64,000 nt of DNA from Adineta ricciae (Eukaryota > Rotifera > Eurotatoria > Adinetida > Adinetidae): the NCBI GenBank assembly GCA_905250025.1, contig CAJNOJ010000008.1:967925-1031924 (forward strand), written 5' to 3'. Under the pieces are notes generated by a model, which did no database searches, was not told the origin of the DNA, and saw only the letters and a list, made by a program, of their open reading frames with translations. Both the position numbers and the translations under genes were made by a program. This document shows positions 47,794 through 64,000 of this stretch, piece by piece. Numbering within the stretch: position 1 is the first letter of the stretch; each line of letters opens with the position of its first letter.

Positions 47794-50077
47794 TTATGAA
47801 CTGTCTTTGTGTAGTAAATGACAAATGATTTGAAAAAAAAAACACAAATAAAACAGAATGTCATAATACACGAGAAATAATCATACAAAGAACAGTTTTT
47901 TTCATTTCTGTACTCTGACATAAAATACCCTCAAATATATTTTAATAAATCATTGAACACTCAAAACGCACTTATAACAATCGCTCTGCAGGATTTCATG
48001 AAATTATACAGAAATCAGTGAAGGGCATATTGTGAAAATATTATTTTATAATGCGAAATATATCACGTGTGACGCGTTTATTTACCGTGTATTATATAAG
48101 AACAATAATCTAATATCTGCTATTATTGTATTTTCATAAGGTATGTCGGTGAGTGGGTTTTGTAAGATAAGTGCATATCAGCGGACAGCCAAGTGCATTC
48201 AGATGAAAACAAATTTGACCACGTAAGCGATGAACATGACAGTAGGGTCTTTAAGTTCCATAACGAGAATCTACTATGAGCTTAGTGACGTTTTCGATTT
48301 ATTCATGTAGAAATGACCGATCACTTTTAAGAGCAACAACAGTTTCACTTCCTATATCTTCACTATGAATCATAGAATTATGTTGAATTATTGTAAGCAA
48401 CTATGATCAACTTTAATCATCCATAAGCCTTTTTCGATTATATATTTCCTTTGGAATATTCAACTAGTCGTATGTTTTATACTTTACAGCGGTTTACACA
48501 GTGTACCAACGAAAACGAGATCTTCTGTTACAAACAATCAGATGCCTTTTTTTACGCTTTTCAGTAGGCAAATGTCGCAAAAGCTGACGGAGAATATTTC
48601 TTCGTTCAAAAAAAGTAAGTCAACTGATTAGAAATTCTTTTCATCACTGAACAATCTATGCTGTTCATATGAACGCTTCAAAAATAGAAAGAGAAGTACC
48701 TACTCCGAAACATTCTTCTTCATGCACAAACAAGGGCCAGTCAAGTTCTATATGTCGCTTCTAGCATAAATCATTAAATAATACTCAAAAGTGAGCATAA
48801 TGGTAAACTGAACTCTTCAGTATCAAAGATCATTATCACTGTAAGAATTGCGGTACTGTATGGCTGATCCCCAATAGAAGTATCGAAGTGTGTTGTATGC
48901 ATGTTACTAGAAGAACTGACAACTCGTTCTAGTTCAGCTACAAACGTCCACGATTCACGATACCTGTCGGAACGTAAAATAGTTCGTTAGCGTTAATAGA
49001 ATTTTCGGACCGAAATGTTCGAAGCGAACAGACAAAAAAATATTGGATACTCCGTACATACATGACGTACGTACGTATGCTTATAACCGTATTTTTATTC
49101 ACTTTTCTATATAGCTTATTATCGAATGAATGCGTAATCAAGCTTATGCACCTTTTTCTCCTTAGTACTATATTTTTCTGCGTCCCTACGTTGTCCTTGT
49201 ATATGAAATGGGTACTATTAGTTGAAAATAATCGATTAGAGGCATAAGAGGAATGACTCTCGTTTTTCATGTGTTTGTATTTAAACCCATTAGTTCGGCA
49301 CAAGTGGCATTATCAATATGAAGCCATGCGGAATAAACGTCTATTAAAAACGTTATGAGTTCAGAAAAATTGATGCTACAAGAAAGATCTTGAGACAAAA
49401 TGAGTTAATTACAAACTGCCTACGAAAAAGGGATAAAATTGTACGCATTATTTTTCGCCGAGAAATCTCATAGAACCATACGGTAATCGCTTGAATTGTT
49501 TACTAGAGACTATTTTCAGGTAGAGTGCGCGCACATTATGTGCGTATTATCTTTTTCTCTCCTATTGTACACATCTATTTACTGTTTTCAACTTCATACC
49601 GTGTATAGAAATCAATCCAGCTTTCTTAATACGAACTCTTGTCTATACATGCTAGTATTTAATCCTACCAAAATCAATTGCTAGAACTATAGACGAGAAT
49701 TTGTGAGACTACTGTTCGATTGATGGCATGACGATGATAATCCCTATTCAACATGATCAAGCACAAGCATTTGTTCTAACGTACGAAAATACAGATATAC
49801 GTATATGCTTTGAATCTTTGAATTCTGGAATGATCGCCCGAAGAACGTACGGAACATTCTCGGAGGAAACTTGTGCACATTAAAGTTAAAGGATACTTAA
49901 AAAAATATACTGCATATATAGATTCGCAAAAGTTTTCTCGATAACATTCTGTAGAAAGAAGAACCTGATGTATAATTTGGATGATTGTTTTAAATAAATA
50001 GTTGCTAGATTATATTTTTAGAGAACATAGTCTTTGTTATTGGTTGTTAATCAATTAGCACACACTCGCGAAAGAGT
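47794..50077. other. 2.3-kb gene-poor spacer before the NRPS
   Basis: No convincing genes on either strand. Short open frames (near 48938-49303 and 49496-49684) lack domains and splice context. A small ACGT-rich palindromic patch lies near 49062-49080. This is the longest gene-poor stretch outside an intron in the window and separates the metazoan gene block from the NRPS. It should contain the NRPS promoter. Confidence 0.5.
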
Positions 50078-53000
50078 ATGAGTTATTGGGACCGAAGAAA
50101 ATCTTACCTTCGATATTTATCGAAGTTAAGTGCAGACTTAAATGAAGCTCATCGTTTTTTCACCTGCATTCACCTTAAATCTTCCGCTCATGAGCGAATT
50201 ACCAATGCTCTAAAGCAACACATATACCATTGCTATGAACTGGCTGTTATATCAATTACAACTCAAGAAAACAGCAAACATACTACATCGCATCGTCAGT
50301 CTAGTTTACTAGGAAAGCTCGATTCATCGGACGAATACCGAATAGTCCTCGCCACTGAATCTCAGCAAGATCGAAGTAATTGCATACTGTCAGTCTCTTC
50401 GAAAGACATCATCTTATTCTCTTTTTAAGCAAAACTACAGCCTGATAATGATACGCACTCAGATTTATTTCCAACGACTTCTCCTATCAACTTTGGCATG
50501 GATTCACTGTCAGCAACGATACTCTTTCAACGCATGGTATCAAAATATAATGTCGATCCTCAAACTGTAAGTATACGAACGTTCTTCACACAAGACACGA
50601 TAGGTGATCAAATAAAACTAATGAAAGAAGCTGGGTCGAAAAATACACAGTCGGTGAAGTGGCAACAACTGCATCTGATTAAAGGTAACTGTTTTCGAAT
50701 ATTGTTTGTATAAAACATACTAAGCGACAATACATTTCTATAGGAATCACATCTTTCGCTCAAGAACGTATATTTCTCGATGAGCAAGTTCGTTTTACTA
50801 AAGAAATTGCCGTGTACAACGAACTAGTTGCTCTACGAATTATTCGTGGTTCAATCTCGATCACCCGTCTAACACGCGCTCTACGCTCTGTTGTGTACAA
50901 GCATAAGATATTACGAACGTCGTTTGCGTTTAATAACAATGATAATACTCTAAATCAGTTGGTCACTGACTATCACAATACATTCACATTAGCATCTGAG
51001 AAGATGTACAAAAATGATGATGAACTCAATGATATTATTAGTCAAGTAATTATGGATCCAAACTTATTCGATTTGTCAATTGGTCGCGTTTTGTTCTGTC
51101 AAATTCTCAAATATCAAAGCTCGAATAATGATGAAAACTCTGATACACCTCTCGCTATATCAGATATTTTTATTGTCGCTTTTCATCATACAGTTTTCGA
51201 TGGCTCAACTTTTCCAATTTTTTTAAATTATCTATCTAGAGCATACAATGATAATACAGAATCTTCAGAAAATGAAGATCTACTACAATATATTGATTAC
51301 AGTGTCCATGAACGACTAACTGATATGAGTCCATCATGTACATTTTGGTCTCATCACTTAAACGGCTACAACACTGATTGTCGATTAGCATTACCCGTCG
51401 ATCGACATAATTCGTTTGATAGACAACGATCTGGATATGCTTACGTTACTGAAGTCTTTTTCGAAAAGGAGACTAGCACAGCATTCATGAATTATGCCAG
51501 CTCACATCAGACCACCGTATTTCAACTGAGTTTAGCTATTTTTTATGCATTCTTATTCAAGTTATCACATCATCAAAATGATCTTTGCGTGTCTTGCTTC
51601 AATGCAAACCGTTACAAACCAGAATTACAGAATATGCTTGGTATGTTTGTCGCAACGTCACCTTGCCGTGTTCAAATGGATTCTAGTTGGTCATTTAATG
51701 AATTAGTCCAACGTGTACGAGAACAATGCTTATCCATCATGGAGCATTCTCATTATCCACTACAGCATATTATCGCTGATCTGCATCTCGAATCATCTAA
51801 AGTGCCTTTTCTTGAACTTTTATTCCATTTCATTAATATATCGTCGAATACCAGCTACTTCAATCTGAACGAAACAAATCTGGAACAAATGTCATTGGCT
51901 CCTTCGTCAGAAGTTGCAAAATTTGATTTTATGCTGAAATTTGTCTACGATTCAACATCCGATGATCGCAAGCTATCATTTCGTTTAATTTGCACGCAAG
52001 ATCTATATAATGAGAATATTGTGAAAATAATGACGCGAAGGTTTAAACAAATTTTCGAACATCTTTTTACACCGTATGCATCGAATGAACAAATTGCTCC
52101 ATCAGATACATTAGTCACCGAACTGAACCTTATCCTACCGGAAGAACAGAATGAAATTCAGAATACCATCTTTTCTCCGAAAATAACAACACTAAACGAA
52201 GGTATGTTGTAAATTTACTAATTGTGGCAATGTTTGCTAGAGTGAGTAACATTTACGATCTATTTTCTGTTCAGGACCACTGTCTTATGCACAAACAAGG
52301 ATTTACCAATGCGAACGAACCTTTTTGCAGTCCGAGAAATCAGCAACGGCAGTTTCTAACATGCCTTTTCTTTGTCGTCTATCCCCAGAATGTATTTTAA
52401 GTGTCCGACAGCTCCAAAAAGCGCTGCATTTGTTAGTTACCAAACACCAATCTCTTCGAACTGCAATCGTTCGTAACGATGAAAACAACATGTGTTTACA
52501 AAAAACCAATGACATTCATGATAATGAAACGCATCTATTTGAGTTTATAGAGACTGCATACAACACAGATGAAGACCTTAATAACATTATGCGCAATGAG
52601 AAGGCCAATCCTCGCCTCTTCGATCTTGCTCTAGGTCTTGTCTTCCGATGCCACCTTGTTTTCCACAAACAGATCTCACCCGACGGTGTTCTTTCTCACA
52701 GCGACCTCATCATCTTCAACTTCCACCATGCTCTCTTCGATTTCCCATCCATGGACATCTTCCTCCATCATCTCAATGAAGCATACACAACTGGTCAACT
52801 GCCATCTGACAACGATGATGCCACTCTTCGGTACATTGACTGTGAGTATTCATTCCTCGTTCGCCACCTTCTCTCATGCAGTCCTTTGTCATTATAGATG
52901 CCATGATCGAACATGAGATGGCGATGAGTGGTGCAAGTATGTTCTGGCTTGATGCTCTTCATGATTGTGACTTAGATCGGCCATTGTCACTGCCATACGA

Positions 53001-56000
53001 TCGACACCGGCTGACGAATGAACACCGAACAGGTCGTGGTACGTCGGTATGTTTTGACTTTGGCTATGATGTGTCGAATGAGCTGATCAGATATGCATCA
53101 TCTCATGATGTGTCAATAAGACAAGTATCACTTGCCATCTACTATGTCTTTCTGTTCAAACTCACTAACGGTGAAAAAGACTTGTGTATTGGCATGCCGA
53201 TCGATAACAGATATAAAAGCGAGCTTAGATCAATAATAGGAATGTTCGTGAATATCATTCCGTTACGCTGTGAGATTGATCCGAGCTGGACTTTGGAGCA
53301 ACTGGTGAAAGGTGTAAATGTAACGGAAATGAGTTGCATCAAATATTCATATTTTCCTCTTGAACGTATTTTTAACCAAAAATGTAATTCTACAATAGCT
53401 GACATACTGAACGTTTGTTTCGATTTTCAATCAAATAAAAATGGGAACATCACAAATGAAACAATAGTCAGTGATGCTCTGCTTCATCCAACTTCTGAAT
53501 CAATCAAGTCAAACAGAAATATACTAAATGACATGTCGGATTTCTCCCTATCAGTTGAACACCAATTGAATAGAGACTTGTTATCATGTACAATCAATGC
53601 ATCACTTGATTTATTCCATGAATCAACAGTAGAAACAATCGCACATAGATTTCACTCGATATTGGAACAACTACCTACGTGTACTGTTCGTAGAATGAAA
53701 ATGCCACTTTTTGAAATACCTTTTCTGTTAACTGATGAAAGAGCAGTGTTGCAATCGATAAACAATACGGAAATACAACACACATCTAACTCATGTATTC
53801 ATCATAAGTTTGTCGATCGAGTATTACAATATCCTCAAAAGTTAGCAGTGGAACTTGATGATCAGTCAATCACATACTCTGAACTACTATATTTTGCTCA
53901 AGTATTATCTATTCAGCTTTTAAAGAAATATCAAGTCGGTTTAGGTGACATTGTATGTCAGTGCGTTGAACGTAGTTTATCGATGGTAAGTTTGCCTACC
54001 AGATAGTTTAGATGATAATAAAACTTTTGGTATTTCTTAGATTATTGGTATTATGGCTACTGAGCTAATTGGTGGAGTTTATTGTCCGCTATCACCTCGA
54101 GACCCCAAACAGCGTTTGCATCTCCTTGTGCAACAGACCCAAAGCCGTATTGTCCTCGCTCATCATCTTACCAAGAATAAATTTCATGATCAATCGAATG
54201 AAATAAGTTTAGTGAATATCGATTGCCAGTTTTACAGCACTGGTGTGAATATGTGCATCGATCATCACTTATTTTCTCATATTAATACCAAACCAAAGAA
54301 TGTTGCTTATGTTATTTTCACAAGTGGCTCCACAGGAGTACCTAAAGCGGTATGTTAAAAAAACCGTAAAGATCTGTGGCAGTCAGTATACTTGATTTTT
54401 TGAGTTGTGGCGGTTTCCACATAAGTCAGTTCTGCCACAATTAGTGCTGAAAACATGAATCACTTTACATACCGTTTCCGCATAGGCTGTACTAAAGCTT
54501 TTCCAGCTTGATAATGAAGTGAAAGTGAAGCTAGCACGACGAAACGTAGGTCTAGCTAAAAACGTTTTTACTAAGTAAGCTCCGTCCACAATAACTAGTG
54601 CACGCGATTAGAACTGAATTCTGCATCGAATGGTAACACTTTTGTGTACGAGACAAGCTTTGGATAGATTCTGTGTGGGTTATAAATGCACGTATATAAG
54701 AAAAATAAGAATGTGGGTAGGTATTTTCCCAAAACTTGTCCCGTGAATAAAGATATCACCATTCGACGCAAAATTGGACTCTGAATTGAGTGCACGAGTT
54801 CATCTGGGCAGGATTTACTTAGTAAGAAGTTTGAAGCTCAATATTTGTTTCGTCGTACTAGCTCCATCATGCTAGCTTTGCATCGAGATAAACAATTAAC
54901 AAAATCTTATATGACAAGTTTAACATGTATTAAGTTAAGAAAACTTGCACATCGTCGAGTAGTTTAGTGTTTATCGTTAGTTTTCGTTTAAGGCGCTCTA
55001 CGTGGTCAATTTCTGACACTTAGTAGATAGCAAAAACAGCTATTAGTATTCCCCAGGTTATTATGGCACGGTCGGTTCCGGTCGGAATTCGGCGGCAAGG
55101 AACCTGCTGGAATCGGCGAAAACTGTGCCGGAATCGAGAAGAGCTGTACCGGATCCGACTCAGATTTCAACGGATTCAGTCGCCGGAATGATCGACCTGG
55201 GTCTATACATATACAGCAAAGTAAGAATACTAACTGAAAAGGTGATATATCAGAAGGATAATGATTACCAGCTAATCTCCATTTCATAAAAATTACTTCT
55301 CTAGTTCCATTCAGATGAATCAACATGTTTAAAGAAAAAACGAAACGGATATTTAGTAAATAAACTATTACAAAACCCATCAACCTGTTCGTGGATTGTT
55401 TTCTCAAAATAAAAGACTATTTGAACTTTCATGTGATCTAATGATACTAAAATTCACTCAATAGGCCAAAGGGAAACGAACTTTGATGGGTGCTCGATGG
55501 AGTAATGTTTTACTTTTGAAGGCTTTCGAACACGTTCTTTTGAGAGTTAGAACTTTGTTTTACTATTTGGCACTTTGGTAACATCTTATCTCATTGGCGG
55601 CGCGCCATAGAGGCGAGAGGAGGCAATTGCCTCCCCTATGGAAAATCTGGGGAGGCAATAAAAGGTTATTGCCTCTCCTAATATTCGCATCTTTTGATAG
55701 TTTTTTAAAGAGTATATCCCACTTGTTACCCAATTTAATTCGAAAAAAGAGGATAGGAAAAAAAGTATTCTGAAAATGAATGAACTATTTATGAATTTCG
55801 AAAATAAATCGATTGTGTGCATTTTTGAAAATCGAAAACCTATACTCACTATTGGTAAAAAAATTTTATTGCCTCCCCTAAAAGATTAAGCATGCGCCGC
55901 CCATGTCTTATCTTATATCTTTTCAACTTTGTTCAGATTTTTTTGTCGGAAATATCATCAGAACACTTAAGTTTCACTTCACATTACTTAAAGGATTGCT

Positions 56001-59000
56001 GACTAAATGTAGTAGTTTTCGTATTAATTAAATAACATAAAGAGCTATGTCAACCAATAACAGATCATGTTTCAATGTAAACTAATGATAGAATATATGT
56101 GCGACAAATTGAGGGTGTGCCAATGTACACTATGGTCTACTGTTTGCTTTATAGGTTCAAATTCAACATGAAAATTTCGCTGAATGTATGTACTCTCTAG
56201 TCAAAACAAACACATTCAACAGCATGGATACAGTTGTGCAGATGGCACGATGTTCATTTGATATTCATGTGCAAGAGATACTTGGTACACTGATGATTGG
56301 AGCAACACTGGTTATGCTTCATCCAGGAGGCACTATTGACTTTTATTATTTAGCTGATGTATTAGCAAGCAAAAATATTTCCTATATTCACACTGTGCCT
56401 AGTTTGCTCCATAATTTCTTCGTTTTTATTGAAAACGACAGTAACCGACATGCGTTGCAGTATCTTCGATCTATCTGTAGTATTGGTGAGTGAAGTCTCG
56501 GCTAATGGCATGCACCTGCTACTTTTTTGTATTATATTTTCTAGGTGAAGTCTTTTCTACTAAGCTGCAAGCTCAGTTATCTAGTGTGAACTCACTAAAC
56601 TGCAAAGTATGGAATATGTATGGTCCAGCAGAGACTACCATTGCATCAACGTTTTATCAGGTGAATGTCACGGATCTCTCTGAATACATTCCGATTGGTG
56701 CCTCACTTCCTAAATATCGGTGTGTAGTCCTAGATGAATATTTACAAAGATCTATTCTTAATCAAGCAGGCGAACTGTGTATTGGAGGTGTAGGAGTCTT
56801 TCCAGGTTATTTAAGGGGCGATGACCTCAATATAAAAGCGCTCATATCCATTGATGATCAACTCCTATACAAAACAGGCGATTTAGCTCGTGTTGATAAC
56901 AATGGTCTACTAGTATATATCGGTCGAAAAGATTTTCAAATTAAATTACACGGTCAGCGTATCGAGCTTACTGAAATAGAGAAATGTCTACTCAGAAAGA
57001 CATCTGTATCTGCTTGCATTGTTATTAAATGGGGAGACAATCATTTGGTTGCCTATATTCAAGCATCAAACATAGATGAAGAGCAGCTACGTGAACACTG
57101 TCAGGCTCATCTTTCTCCGCACATGATTCCATCAATGTTTATCATACTTAACAAATTGCCTTTGAATCCGAATGGAAAAATAGATCGAAAATCTCTGCCA
57201 GCTCCAAAATTTGAACTCCATTCAGCAGACAAGACGAGTGACCTATATGTGAAGCCGAAGGATGAGTCTGAAATTTATATTCATAAATTATGGTCTAAGA
57301 TTCTTAACACGGACAAAATCTCTACCAATGCAAGCTTTTTTGATATCGGCGGCCATTCTCTGTTACTTGTGCAATTATATCAAAGTTATAGATTAAGTCT
57401 GGATATAAATACGACTAAGATTAGTATTGCCGATCTTCGACAGTATCCTACGATCACTGATCATGCTCGTCTTATTGCCCAAGAGATTAGGGGCACACCA
57501 ATGCGCAATAAACTTGGATCCGAAGCATCTCTTTTACAAGGTAAGTTTTGGTATCATATATTTTAGTTATTTTCCTTTATTGCTGTGATTATTAGAAACA
57601 ATGCTCGGTCAGAAATTAGATTCGTCCTCTTCCACGGAGGATAACAGGATCTTAAGTGACGAGCTGGCAAGACACGAACCATTTCCAGTTACAGATATTC
57701 AACAAGCTTATTTGATTGGACGTGAAGGCTTTATTGAGCTTGGTTCAGTTTCTTGTTTTGTTTACCACGAATACGATTTTCCCGCGACATTCGATATTGA
57801 AAAGTTCGAGAAAGCATTGAATTACCTCATTCAGTATCATGAGGCATTGCGTACGATTTTTATCTCTCGGACAGAACAAAAAATCCTCGAAACAGTTCCA
57901 TTGTACACTTTGTCTATAGTGGAATTAGATGATACTTTAACAATGAAAGAAAAACTACTAGAACGACGTCGAGAGCTTTCCCATCGAATCTTACCTGCTG
58001 ATCAATGGCCGCTTTTTAATATTCAGACTACTCATTTCAAACTAGATAACGAGTATCGAACTCGCCTACATATTGGTTTCGATGCACTCATCCTGGATTT
58101 CTGGAGTATGATGTTAATATATCGTCAGCTCGGTCAGTTGTACAGTAGCTCAAATTTCGCTCTACCGAAACTAACGTTCTCGTTCCGAGACTATGTTCTA
58201 AGCGAAGAAAAGTTTAAAAGTACGCCCAATTACACAAACGATAAAGGATACTGGCTCGACCGTCTAAACACTTTTCCATCAGGTCCTAAATTGCCACTAC
58301 AATGTCTACCGAACGAAATTCATGTACAACGTCATTGCAATTCACAGCAGCTACTAGACAGATCATCATGGAGTAGATTAAAAAGACGAATCATCGATTA
58401 TGAGCTGACACCAGCTGGCTTCTTAGTATCCATTTACGCCATCGTCTTGTCTAAGTGGAGTGAGAATAAACATTTTGCATTGAATTTACCAATCTTCAAT
58501 CGGCTTCCGATACATCCGCAAATCAATGAAATAGCAGGAGATTTTACAACAGTTTTACCATTGGAAATACACTTGGATGAACCGATTTCATATTATAAAT
58601 TCGTTCAAACGGTCCAACGACAACTGTGGAACGATCTTGAGCATATGTCCTACAACGGTGTGTCATTTGTTCGCGATCTGATGCAGACACAGAAAACCAA
58701 AGAAATCGTTTTACCATTCGTTTTCACATGTGGCATAGATATAGGTGGTATGAATCAAAAGGATGATAGCAAATATTTATTTTTGGATCAGCGACCTGAA
58801 TACATGATTAGTCAAACGCCACAAGTGTTTCTCGATCATGTCGTATATGAAAGTGATGGTCATCTATCCGATAATTGGATATACGTGAACGAATTGCTTT
58901 CTTCTGAATTGATTGAAAATATGCACATGACATTTATCAACGCACTTCACGAATTCAGCCTATCTGATGATATGTGGCAACAACCCATTTCTATATCGCT

Positions 59001-62000
59001 ACCACCTGATCAATACAATCGACGATTACACTTCAATCAAACACAGTGGAAGCCGAACATTAAACAACATTTGCTTCATTCAGGCATCATAGAAAAGGCC
59101 GAACAAACACCGGATTCATTGGCCATCATCTCGCCGCAAGCTCATTTCACTTACAAGCAACTCATGGATCGCGTCTATTCCTTAGCTAGCCATCTTGAAC
59201 ACGAATATCAAATTCGTTCCAATGAATTAATTGCCATATTAATGAAAAAAGGATGGGAACAAGTTGTTGCCTGTCTAGCAATCCTAGTTTCAGGTGGTGC
59301 TTATTTGCCGTTGGATGTTGATGCACCATATGATCGTCTCAAGTCATTAATTGAAGAAACCAGCGTTCGTATTGTTCTTACACAGTCGCATTGTCAACAC
59401 GTGTTCTCACATTTAACAACGATCGCAGTTGATACATTTACAACTACTGACTGGCAAAAATCTTCGTTTCTAGTTAGACAACAATCACCAACAGATTTAG
59501 CTTATATCATTTATACATCGGGCTCAACCGGAAAACCCAAAGGCGTCATGATCAGCCATCAAGCTGCGTTAAACACTATTCTCGATATGAACTCAAGATT
59601 AGAAATAACATCTCACGATAGAATATTTGCATTATCGCATTTAAATTTCGATTTATCGGTTTACGATATTTTCGGGTCATTAAACGGCGGTGGAACTATC
59701 GTTATTCCAGGTCACGAAGATTATAAGAATCCTAAGCATTGGTGCGACATGATGATAGAGTATCGTGTAACGATATGGAATAGTGTTCCGATGTTAATGC
59801 AAATGTTAGTTGAACATTACAAACACACTAAAAGCAATCATCATCAATTACGTCACGTCTTATTAAGTGGTGACTGGATACCTTTAACATTACCGAAGGC
59901 TATACACACAACATTTGGTACAAAAGTGATGGTAATAAGTTTAGGCGGAGCAACAGAAGCATCTATCTGGTCAATTGCCTATGAAATACCTAGAATGATG
60001 CCTCAAGAATGGAAATCAATTCCTTATGGAGCACCATTACGAAATCAGCATTATTACGTTTATGATTCTCACCTGGATGATTGTCCTGAATGGGTGATGG
60101 GAGAACTATATATCGGTGGTATAGGTCTAGCTGATGGCTATTGGAATGATGCTGTGAAAACACAATCTAGTTTCATGATTCATCCACGAACACGTGAACG
60201 TATTTATCGAACAGGTGATCATGGTCGATTCATGCCTGGTGGCTATATTGAGTTTATGGGACGAAAAGACTATCAGGTGAAAGTACATGGTCACCGTATT
60301 GAACTTGGAGAAATTGAATATCATCTCCAGCAACATTCAGATATTCATCAAGCAGTTGCTAGTGTTGATCTGCGCTCCCAACAATTGATTGCATACATTA
60401 TGCCGGAGCGACATTCACTTCCCTCCGAAAAATACGATCCATCGCAAATTGAAATAACTGGTCATGTTGAACGTAGCAATTTCAAGTTGGCAAGATATGG
60501 TATACAACATCAATTACGAGGAGAGAAGAGCGTCGCCTTAACAAAACCAAAATTAACAGAAACATTAATCAATAAGTATTATGCGAGAAAAAGTTATCGA
60601 CAATTCACAAATGAGCACATTGACCGATCAACTATAGAGACTCTATTGAAACAATGCTACAATATGGGTCATGATAATGAAAAATCATTTTCGTCGCACA
60701 TTAGTTTCGATACATTGAGTACGTTGCTAGCAATATTAACACCAATTAATTTTTCTAACCAACCTTTACCGAAATATTACTATGCATCAGCGGGAAGTCT
60801 TTATCCTGTTCAAGTGTACGTTGAAGTGCATACACCTATAGATGGCATACCGCCAGGTCTTTACTATCACAATCCGGACAAGCACAGCCTAGAACTCGTT
60901 AGTGCTAGTACGAATGAGGAGACGGCGAGTGTATATTTCCATCTAGTCGGTCGATCATCGGCAATTGCACCTTTGTACAGCAAAACATTAGGCACGAATT
61001 TTTGTTCACTAGAGACGGGATATATGATGGGGTTGCTGGAAAAAGAAGCATCTAAGATGGGATTGAAATTTTTCAGAGATTATCAAATCGAGTCCTTAAC
61101 TAAGGGTGCTCTCAATGTGAACGAAGGTGATACTCATTATTGCTTCGAAGTTTTTTCTAATCCAGAACGTATGACGAATGACAAACATTGCCAGCTTCGT
61201 CAATGTCTCGTTTACATAAAATCTAGCACTACGAATGAAAGTCAATGGTTTAAGTATGTTTCAGAAACTGACCATTTTATTCATGTTCTTAGTGGAACTG
61301 GTTCCACAGAGGAAGAAATGCCATTGTTCTTTGACAATGATAACGATGCAAAAGCTATATTTCATGATTGCCAATTTGCATTATTCTTCATTGGAAATCC
61401 AAACGACAATCTGGAGGCAGGTAAAATATCACATTTGTTGATGGAGTACAGTGTAGAGAAGAATATTGGAATATGTCCGATCGGTTCTCGGGCTAGTTTT
61501 CCAGCTGGCTTCAATAATATCTTGGACAGTCTGCTTACCAGTGATTATGAGAACAATAATGAAATTCTGTTACACATTCTACTTGCTGGAAAAATTAGTG
61601 ATGAGCAGAAATATGATCGAACTATTTCGAGAGTCAAAGCAATGCCGAAATGGAATGAAACTCTGAAAGCATTCTTGAGTGCAAAGCTTCCCACTTATAT
61701 GATACCATCACATTTCTTACCCGTTTCTACGTTTCCCTTGAATCCAAATGGTAAAATTGACCGACAAGCTCTGCCGGAAATATCTGTCGAAATCATTCGG
61801 CGGGAAGATGCTTTTTTGGCACCACAAACTGAAACAGAGAGGATAATAGTAAATATCTGGCAGCAAGTACTATATACCGATAAATTTAATTCACAGCATG
61901 GTGACTTACAACTACATCATTCAGATATGAGCTTAATTGAAGAAAAAAAGCAGTCAGCTCCACCCATATCAGTTACGTCTAGTTTCTATGGTCTCGGTGG

Positions 62001-64000
62001 GGATTCTCTATTACTCATTCAAATTTACAGACAGTATCAATTAACCTTTAATTTTGAAAGTGATATTATCAGTATTCGACCATTCTTCGAAAACGATACT
62101 ATTGCTGATCACGCGAAATTGCTTGTGGCTCTTACAGTCGATAACATCAAACTAAATCTATGGCACACGTTACACATCGCAGAAGGTCAGCTTATAATGT
62201 GTTTCATTTTTGGAAAACCGTATTTGTTTAATTTATTTTAAGGTATCGCATCATTCGCTCAAGAACGTATATATCTCGATGAACAAGTTCGCTTTTCCAA
62301 CAAAATTGCTATCTACAACGAAATTGCAGCTCTTCAAGTTGCTAACGGTTCCCTGTCAGTAGATCGCCTTTCAAGAGCTTTACAATCGGTTATGAGTAAA
62401 CATAAAATACTAAGGACTTCTCTCACGGTCGATTATAGTGACCGTACCTTAACCCAACAAGTTAATAATGGCCATGCAGTGTGTAAATTATTACCGGATA
62501 AAACATTTATAAATGCAAATGAACTTCATGACATAATCTGGCAAATCACAATCGATCCTAATCTCTTCAGTTTATCGACTGGCAGTGTTTTTCATTGTCA
62601 GATACTTCGGCAACATAGGTCATCTGAACAAATGACTGATCCAGCATACATAACAGAGGGCGACGTACTTATAATCGGCGCTCATCATGCAGCAGCTGAC
62701 CGATCAACATTTCCTATTATTTACACCGACATATGTAGTGCTTACAACAATCATGCAGGATATATAGACGATAAAGAGCTATTGCAGTACATTGATTATA
62801 GTGTACATGAACGTATCACAGATATGACAACGTCGCGACAGTTTTGGGCTTCCCATCTACAAGGAAGCGATCTGGAACGTCGATTACCACTGCCCATCGA
62901 TCATCATCGCTCACATAGTGCACAACGCTCAGGATATGCCTCGATTTTTCGAATATCTTTCCACGAAACGACCATATCAAACTTTCTTAATTGTGCGTCT
63001 TCATATCAAGTTACCCCATTTCAACTAGGATTGACAACATTCTATGCGTTCTTATACAGGCTAACACGTCAGCAAACAGATCTATGCGTTGCCTGCCTGA
63101 ATGCTAATCGGTATAGATCTGAACTAGAGAATATGGTAGGAATGTTTGTTTCGACATTACCGTACCTGATACACATTGACTCAGACACTTCCTTTGATGA
63201 TCTTTTCAACCGTGTGCGAAACGAATGCTTGTCCATATTTGAACATTCTCAATATCCGTTACAGTACATCATTAAAGATTTTAACCTCAATTCCTCGAAT
63301 CTTTCATTTCTTGAAACATTGTTTGACTACATTACCGTGTCATTTAACGCTGAAAAACTATTTATGGATACAGCTAATATGAAACAGGTCGCATCAGCTC
63401 AATCACTTGAAGTTGGCAAATTTGACTTCAAACTCACGTTCATACAAAATCCAGCATTAGCTGATGATAAACTATCAGTAAAAGTTGTATGTTCTGATGA
63501 TGTTTTTGATGATTCTACCATTTCAAAGATGGCATACAGATTTAAATACTTATTTGAACAATTTTTCTCAATGGATTCAACCATCACTCAAACTAAGTTG
63601 CGAACACTTAAGCTCAACGATTTAATTCTTGTTTTACCAGAAGAAGTTAACGAGATACAAAACGCATTATTCCGACGTCAATCGATTAGCGGCGCACAAG
63701 GTAAGTTGCCATCGAACGCACCAGTCCTCTATAAAGTTATAAATTTTCAAACGATTCTAAACCTCTCATAGAAACAAACGTTGCCTGAGATTGTTCACAT
63801 AATATCTAAAACTATCATATTCTACTTCGCTACATTGAAACAGTTTACCTGCGCTATAGGACCAGCATCTTATGCTCAGGCTCGTATATGGCTCGACGAA
63901 CGAACCCGATTCGATCCTGATAAACCACAACTCGCCATCTATAACATGCCTTTCCTCTATCGCCTCGCAACAGGCTCATCTCTTTCCGTTCAGCAGCTCC
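50078..64000 (+). CDS. multimodular nonribosomal peptide synthetase with thiazole-forming module (partial at window edge)
   Basis: Eleven exons: 50078-50392, 50441-50684, 50744-52201, 52275-52841, 52898-53985, 54041-54349, 56155-56485, 56545-57540, 57596-62185, 62243-63700 and 63860 onward. They keep one frame through 11,497 coding bases (over 3,830 residues). Domain order is an unknown N-terminus of about 105 aa, then T, C1, C2, A1, T1, Cy, A2 with inserted Ox, T2, C3 and the start of C4. An NRPS builds peptides by activating amino acids (A), holding them on phosphopantetheine (T) and joining them (C); Cy plus Ox makes a thiazole from Cys. No termination domain is seen because the gene continues. 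An in-frame TAA at 50426 falls inside a plausible 48-bp intron (50393-50440). NRPSs are bacterial and fungal in origin, so this is a horizontally acquired, intron-bearing gene. Confidence 0.92.
50441..50684 (+). other. NRPS domain: initial thiolation (carrier) domain
   Basis: Exon encoding PINFGMDSLSATILFQRM. The Ser codon at 50504-50506 is the phosphopantetheine attachment site (usual LGGDSL, here FGMDSL). It is followed by an FFTQDTIGDQIKLM helix. No adenylation domain precedes it, only about 105 residues of unrecognised sequence, so the loading amino or acyl group must come from elsewhere. Confidence 0.8.
50744..52201 (+). other. NRPS domain: condensation C1 (single 1,458-bp exon)
   Basis: Opens SFAQERIFLDEQVRF (C1 core). 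It has the intact catalytic HHTVFDG at 51184-51204 (HHxxxDG), then CFNANRYKPELQNMLGMFVA and YPLQHIIADLHLESS. The exon is bounded by phase-1 introns that split a Gly codon at each end, and its 486-codon length equals that of C3. It is followed directly by a second C domain without an A or T domain. Confidence 0.88.
52275..53750 (+). other. NRPS domain: condensation C2 (variant active site)
   Basis: Opens SYAQTRIYQCERTF. The catalytic motif at 52724-52744 reads HHALFDF: both His and the Asp are kept but the final Gly is Phe. Later blocks are GMPIDNRYKSELRSIIGMFV and YFPLERIFNQK. An internal intron lies at 52842-52897. It precedes adenylation domain A1. Confidence 0.83.
54526..54867. repeat. fold-back element with about 110-bp imperfect inverted arms
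   Basis: The left arm (54526-54636) and the reverse complement of the right arm (54754-54867) align over about 110 bases. Shared blocks include GCTAG-ACGACGAAAC, TTACTAAGTAA, TGCACT/G and TCGAATGGT, in the same order with scattered mismatches. The loop is about 117 bp. It looks like an aged MITE or fold-back transposon. No clear target duplication was found. Confidence 0.65.
55584..55591. repeat. left target-site duplication of the MITE
   Basis: TCTTATCT, identical to 55906-55913 on the other side of the element. Confidence 0.85.
55592..55905. mobile_element. hAT-like MITE, 314 bp, with perfect 8-bp target-site duplication
   Basis: Terminal inverted repeats: the left end reads CATTGGCGGCGC and the reverse complement of the right end reads CATGGGCGGCGC (11 of 12 match). 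TCTTATCT is present directly on both sides (55584-55591 and 55906-55913), a perfect 8-bp duplication typical of hAT transposons. Inside are subterminal copies of GAGGCAAT and ATTGCCTCCCC in both orientations. No transposase frame is present, so it is non-autonomous. Both ends and the duplication are nearly intact, so insertion appears recent. Confidence 0.88.
55906..55913. repeat. right target-site duplication of the MITE
   Basis: TCTTATCT, identical to 55584-55591. Confidence 0.85.
57235..57540 (+). other. NRPS domain: thiolation T1
   Basis: DESEIYIHKLWSKILN leads to NASFFDIGGHSLLLVQLYQS. The Ser of GGHSL carries the phosphopantetheine arm. It is followed by the TITDHARLIAQEI helix and a phase-1 intron. 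Confidence 0.88.
57596..59050 (+). other. NRPS domain: heterocyclization (Cy)
   Basis: Starts with the Cy1 motif PFPVTDIQQAYLIGR. The condensation HHxxxDG is replaced by the Cy-type DxxxxD motif: the codons at 58081-58098 read DALILD, in the context HIGFDALILDFWSM. Further Cy blocks are LPIFNRLPIHPQINEIAGDF and PFVFTCGID. Cy domains condense and cyclodehydrate Cys, Ser or Thr to a thiazoline or oxazoline. Confidence 0.92.
59080..61800 (+). other. NRPS domain: cysteine-type adenylation A2 interrupted by an oxidase
   Basis: Core motifs are YIIYTSGSTGKPKGVMISHQ (A3), FDLSVYDIFGSLNGGG (A4, Asp codon 59650-59652), LGGATEASIWS (A5), GELYIGGIGLADGYW (A6), YRTGDHGRF (A7) and GRKDYQVKVHGHRIELGEIE (A8). 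A long insertion follows, then SAKLPTYMIPSHFLPVSTFP and LNPNGKIDRQALP (A10, 61741-61770). The nine pocket positions read D-L-Y-N-L-S-L-I-W, identical to the known Cys code. Confidence 0.92.
60560..61590 (+). other. NRPS domain: McbC/SagB-type flavin oxidase (Ox) inserted between A8 and A10
   Basis: Begins YYARKSYRQFTNEHIDRSTI. It has the nitroreductase-like FMN-site block YYYASAGSLYPVQVYVEV (60775 onward), GLYYHNPDKHSLELV, CSLETGYMMGLLEKEASKMG and IGICPIGSRASF (about 61465-61500). The same placement inside an A domain is known in bacterial thiazole modules of the epothilone type. It should oxidise thiazoline to thiazole. Confidence 0.9.
61830..62140 (+). other. NRPS domain: thiolation T2
   Basis: TETERIIVNIWQQVLY leads to SSFYGLGGDSLLLIQIYRQY, with the phosphopantetheine Ser at codon 62005-62007. 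A linker of about 25 residues containing HSDMSLIEEKKQSAPPISV is inserted before the core and looks disordered. Confidence 0.88.
62243..63700 (+). other. NRPS domain: condensation C3 (variant active site; same exon length as C1)
   Basis: Opens SFAQERIYLDEQVRF and is clearly paralogous to C1 along its length (YIDYSVHERITDM, CLNANRYRSELENMVGMFVS). The catalytic motif at 62683-62703 reads HHAAADR instead of HHxxxDG. The exon is 1,458 bp with phase-1 introns on both sides, exactly like C1. Confidence 0.87.
63860..64000 (+). other. NRPS domain: condensation C4, start only (cut by window edge)
   Basis: Opens PASYAQARIWLDERTRFDPD, the same type as C2 (SYAQTRIYQCER), and is preceded by a phase-1 intron of 159 bp. 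The C3-C4 pair therefore repeats the C1-C2 arrangement. Confidence 0.85.

Follow-up and report, generated by a model that had tools for sequence, protein, structure and literature searches.

The described nonribosomal peptide synthetase (NRPS) systems closest to the module treated here, which lies in a stretch of 64,000 nucleotides from the bdelloid rotifer Adineta ricciae (the window; contig CAJNOJ010000008.1, positions 967,925 to 1,031,924), are those of bacillamide, indigoidine and epothilone synthesis. For bacillamide, the structure of BmdB was determined with an analogue of cysteine adenylate, and its flavin mononucleotide (FMN) oxidase BmdC is a separate homodimer with an RRE-like domain, as described in PMC8795117, while Thr1196 and Asp1226 of BmdB are reported in PMC8807600 to matter for ring closure. 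In indigoidine synthetase IndC (A-Ox-T-TE) the oxidase (Ox) was placed between motifs A8 and A9 of the adenylation (A) domain and predicted to be a pseudodimer; the part of PMC8795117 consulted describes a fused oxidase pair for indigoidine synthetases only, and puts the Ox of the epothilone enzyme EpoB inside the A domain. Bdelloid NRPS genes have already been described (PMC11258130, PMC10531068), with about 50 copies in Adineta vaga (PMC3846280). As related in PMC11258130, acquired bdelloid NRPS genes were switched on by a fungal pathogen, eleven NRPS or polyketide synthase (PKS) genes of A. ricciae being up 24 hours after fungal challenge, and their products were only predicted.

In the window, a bacterial-type module with heterocyclization (Cy), A, Ox and carrier (T) domains is encoded intact in an animal genome, and it probably loads cysteine, cyclizes it to thiazoline and oxidizes the ring to thiazole. 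It is likely an acquired thiazole-forming module which is still intact and active, and the rotifer can probably assemble a thiazole-bearing peptide. The exon has the following features.

57596..62185, + strand, exon for the entire Cy-A-Ox-T module (open frame, exact GT-AG borders)
57673..58980, + strand, Cy domain (Pfam and sequence matches), with DxxxxD at 58081-58098, Thr380 at 58726-58728 and Asp416 at 58834-58836
59068..60429, + strand, A-domain core, pocket DLYNLSLIW(K), predicted for cysteine (sequence matches, pocket alignment, model)
60436..61650, + strand, Ox, a nitroreductase-type oxidase of two fused units, lying between A8 and A9 (sequence, alignment, fold model)
60586..60600, + strand, RKSYR, predicted FMN phosphate motif, BmdC R145-R149 (alignment)
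60784..60798, + strand, ASAGS, predicted second-unit FMN loop, BmdC 182-186 (alignment)
60976..60978, + strand, Tyr1130, predicted Ox base, BmdC Tyr260 (alignment)
61348..61350, + strand, Ala1254 at the position of BmdC Asn236, a departure (alignment)
61483..61485, + strand, Gly1299, BmdC Gly294 (alignment)
61687..61764, + strand, A9-A10 motifs, closing the A domain behind the Ox
61813..62163, + strand, T domain, GGDSL, with Ser1473 at 62005-62007 (Pfam, alignment)

The exon is enclosed by a stop-free + strand frame of 1550 codons (57589-62241), and the longest frame in 60 simulation runs of like composition on that strand had 176 codons. An earlier note, made from the letters of this DNA, had proposed such a module with a cysteine code in an animal genome. 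The module proved to be real, as a single open exon at exactly 57596-62185; its animal location was confirmed by ordinary animal exons in the window and by A. vaga relatives on 18.1- and 16.9-Mb contigs; and the code held, with nine pocket positions matching those of cysteine-loading BmdB. The pocket reads DLYNLSLIWK, its residues 1-9 are identical to BmdB, and these nine (DLYNLSLIW) are common to 28 of the 33 rows in the A-domain alignment; cysteine was assigned through the Stachelhaus code, which we take to apply here. From the structure model of the whole module (pTM 0.49) only the A domain could usefully be read, and the best 60 matches of a profile search were mainly Cy and A chains, which added nothing on the Ox.

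BmdB was also the best solved relative of Cy and A together (E 6.1e-186). Its module 2 and BmdC share with the window the Cy-A-T order, the cysteine code, the Cy catalytic residues and a related FMN oxidase, whereas the window oxidase is a fused pair inside the A domain. The BmdB motifs PIVFT and VYLD correspond to PFVFT (T380) and VFLD (D416), and these two residues were taken as the counterparts of T1196 and D1226 because they match the sole Thr-Asp pair 30 apart in these BmdB motifs. The cyclization set is thus complete in the window, with DxxxxD, Thr and Asp all kept. Among the 36 Cy rows compared, DxxxxD was kept in all and the Asp in 34 (gone in P0019 and in C413, a relative in the same genome), while the ring-closing Thr was kept in 30 and replaced by Met or Leu in P0004, P0005, P0006, P0012, P0035 and P0040. 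P0004 and P0012 retain a cysteine-type A code despite the lost Thr, and by their motifs the Thr-less copies are natural candidates for condensation without cyclization.

The window Ox matches BmdC by sequence (E 1.1e-8) and by predicted fold (model pTM 0.83), and RKSYR, ASAGS, Tyr1130 and Gly1299 are all kept. Aligned with P0142, which is IndC-like by domain order, it has two half-units per chain, RKxYR before the first and the insertion after A8, an arrangement like that of IndC. P0142 differs in having no Cy by Pfam and in its code, DAWQFGLINK, presumably of the glutamine type, against DLYNLSLIWK in the window. EpoB, which we take to have the same Cy-A-Ox-T order, differs by its single Ox unit: P0196 (source name: epothilone synthetase B) is without the second half, which is present in the window. 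The epothilone or bleomycin type suggested in the earlier note was therefore not upheld, and the Ox is of the fused two-unit, indigoidine-synthetase kind. The statement there that every catalytic signature is preserved stood for Cy, A, T and most Ox residues, and was slightly too strong since BmdC Asn236 is Ala in the window. Two Pigmentibacter NRPSs (P0125 and P0126) come close, with Cy-A-Ox-T, the same fused Ox and the same pocket; they differ in being bacterial, and in Cy and A other bacteria come nearer to the window. An Ox broken by having RKSYR and the glycine of CPIG in different halves was judged unlikely, because the same order is found in the indigoidine-type P0142 and in bacterial P0125, P0126, P0129, P0130, P0139 and P0143. 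The search with P0142 as query yielded nothing further on the Ox.

In the proposed chemistry, the A domain would activate L-cysteine with ATP and load it onto the phosphopantetheine arm on Ser1473, the arm being supplied by a host transferase; two loci of the genome are candidates for a phosphopantetheinyl transferase, and the T domain scanned alone scored 26.7 bits against a cut-off of 20.8, with the Ser kept. The Cy domain would then join the residue from the preceding A1-T module to Cys and cyclodehydrate it through T380 and D416. The embedded Ox, as a fused pseudodimer with one predicted composite FMN site, would dehydrogenate the ring using Tyr1130, and the chain would be handed to the next C domain. 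The exon would presumably be spliced at its GT-AG borders and expressed.

Several observations weigh against a working thiazole module. The Pfam nitroreductase family PF00881 scores just under its cut-off on the Ox, Asn236 is lost as described above, and Foldseek TM-scores of the Ox model against BmdC were 0.30-0.63 with large rmsd, the matches being partial. The fold-aligned ranges also disagree on the half that owns RKSYR: judged by range ends only, 36 of the 50 listed fold rows, running from model residues 31-44 to 389-401, would place it with the second half, and seven, including McbC and ThcOx, running from 15-29 to 243-244, would place it with the first. At 8 of 62 conserved Cy columns the window departs from the consensus, and most of these are altered in other rotifer copies too. 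The loss of key residues in several sister copies shows a family in partial decay. In the C domain that follows, HHAAADR stands in place of HHxxxDG, and the contig stops inside the NRPS gene, at 64000 (the window end), 1.8 kb past the module exon.

Since the fold ranges leave the placement of the FMN site unsettled, the odds of thiazole formation were slightly lowered and those of a module halting at thiazoline raised, in which Cy and A work and the Ox, its FMN site altered, oxidizes poorly or not at all. Ala or Thr takes the place of Asn236 in 19 of 26 rotifer rows, and the FMN-loop Gly is Asp or Glu in nine of them. Some copies are without the base Tyr or without the FMN loop, namely C413 (APLC and SYENL) and A. 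vaga P0011 (Cys). Nevertheless, the four Ox signatures named above are retained in the window itself, and both Pigmentibacter rows are also without Asn (Glu in the alignment), so its loss may predate the rotifer copies or be tolerated. A halt at thiazoline was considered unlikely, and thiazole formation remained the preferred reading.

It is rather more doubtful that the gene is a silent relic, a decaying assembly line whose Cy-A-Ox-T exon is open by recency. Such decay is seen in C413 (C413:38256-43934), which has 73% identity to A. vaga P0011 and is open for 1893 codons with eroded motifs, YTSSSKCHPKG at A3 and IPQVFLN in Cy besides the two in Ox; because it is open yet motif-broken, an open frame by itself proves little. 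The repeat-rich 1.8-kb intron in A1 and the odd C-domain motifs would also suit a relic. Columns conserved in at least 95% of 90 non-rotifer rows were counted. In the A core the window misses 0 of 99, C413 14 of 99 and A. vaga P0011 7 of 99; in Cy, C413 misses 13 of 62 and P0011 6 of 60, and the window's count lies within the range of 5-9 for the other rotifer copies, C413 aside. These counts, rather than dN/dS, support constraint on the window copy, and the earlier preference for function over decay agrees with conservation well beyond that of C413. The Cy and T catalytic residues are intact, the A1 intron has GT-AG borders with flanking exons in frame, and the grouping of the window with 12 Adineta steineri sequences in the Ox tree (0.996) points to a line that is kept elsewhere. 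At least two Ox matches (window and C413) and at least three Cy matches (the same two and one at 22% identity) were found in the genome of 130.5 Mb in 1033 contigs. Further C domains lie along contig C413.

For the origin of the thiazole module, 112 proteins matched the Ox at E <= 0.001; many rows are nameless, and the named eukaryotes are all Adineta or Rotaria. The nearest bacterial proteins over the full Ox length are the two from Pigmentibacter (34% over 98%), a genus of the order Silvanigrellales, and other bacteria score equal or higher for Cy and A alone. Trees were made with FastTree and midpoint rooting, leaving out P0001, the window's own database copy; a row entered a tree with at least 370 aligned residues in A, 380 in Cy or 320 in Ox. 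Non-rotifer rows were limited to the 90 highest in BLAST order, a limit that A and Cy reached, and 39 names were treated as rotifer (24 named Adineta or Rotaria, 13 unlabelled ones assigned by identity, and two from this genome). The phylogeny proposed earlier as a check gave one rotifer clade spanning Adineta and Rotaria for each of three domains: 38/38 rows in A (support 1.0), 26/26 in Cy (1.0) and 31/31 in Ox (0.998). The window groups with named rotifer copies and the nearest outsiders are bacterial, as for a horizontally acquired gene. The node joining the next bacteria has support of 0.0 in A, 0.293 in Cy and 0.894 in Ox; these nodes being weak for A and Cy, the donor is not fixed.

One old acquisition before the Adineta-Rotaria split fits these trees best, and the module may also have passed between bdelloids. 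The A tree joins the window to a set like the A. steineri one of the Ox tree (0.893), while the Cy tree puts it weakly (0.496) with C413, P0009 and P0011, so domain shuffling among copies is possible; most of the A. steineri sequences are incomplete, and some may be alleles. A fuller account, offered tentatively, is that bdelloids gained a thiazole-peptide line with a fused indigoidine-type oxidase in a single transfer from a Silvanigrellales-like bacterium ahead of that split, that the line multiplied in A. steineri, and that it supplies the animals with an antifungal or antibacterial compound of their own.

Bacterial contamination or a misjoined contig has next to no probability and was rejected: the domains are bacterial in type, but the gene has introns, its GC content of 37-39% is inside the 33.5-39.2% found per 2-kb step across the window, the nearest named proteins are from A. 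steineri, A. vaga and Rotaria, two of these lying on contigs of chromosome scale, and animal-type exons lie beside the NRPS exons, which makes the host contig an animal chromosome. These include sacsin-like, chondroitin N-acetylgalactosaminyltransferase, calponin-homology, PP2C, ATP12, ribophorin I and secretin-type GPCR exons, and seven of the eight upstream frames scanned within the window had a Pfam match.

The module belongs to the same kind of horizontally acquired megasynthase, in the same animals, as the NRPS/PKS clusters of PMC11258130 and PMC10531068. In the main texts of both, supplements aside, "thiazol" does not occur, and "heterocyc" occurs once in PMC10531068. No report of a thiazole NRPS from rotifers or bdelloids was found by title and abstract start in the open literature, supplements aside, and the literature search gave nothing on nonribosomal synthesis in Pigmentibacter. 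The pairing of Cy with a fused indigoidine-type oxidase would make a subclass of thiazole modules common to Pigmentibacter and a few bacterial proteins that carry no label. The module, whose substrate code and ring chemistry can be read, offers a defined chemical feature to seek in animal extracts, so the question of animals making their own antibiotics becomes directly testable.

The exon is flanked by further NRPS parts.

50429..54349, + strand, upstream exons with a weak T, two C domains and the first part of A1
54350..56154, + strand, GT-AG intron within A1, rich in multi-copy repeats
56155..57563, + strand, preceding module, the C-terminal portion of A1 followed by its T (GGHSL, 57348)
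62242..63771, + strand, following C domain (HHAAADR, 62683)

The weak upstream T scored 19.0 bits, under the cut-off of 20.8. P0001 continues past the following C domain into the start of the next domain. The 1.8-kb stretch in A1 is made up mostly of repeats with many copies in the genome (63 matches there, itself included), while the introns beside it are about 55 bases. An A1 broken by insertion was disfavoured, and an intron enlarged by repeats preferred, because of the GT-AG borders and the in-frame exons. The two upstream C domains stand in tandem (50689-54006); the Gly of HHxxxDG is kept in the first (HHTVFDG, 51184), is Phe in the second (HHALFDF, 52724) and Arg in the C domain after the module, and similar changes are seen again on C413 and among A. 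steineri copies. The most 5' T (50051-50713) reads GMDSL, which we take to resemble a polyketide carrier, and comes after a frame of 125 codons that has no Pfam match. In addition, long intron-free NRPS frames of 3571, 2001, 1634 and 4163 codons were observed at C114:194972-219494 and on C768; C114 apparently holds two similar NRPS clusters, and these frames may stem from a more recent acquisition.
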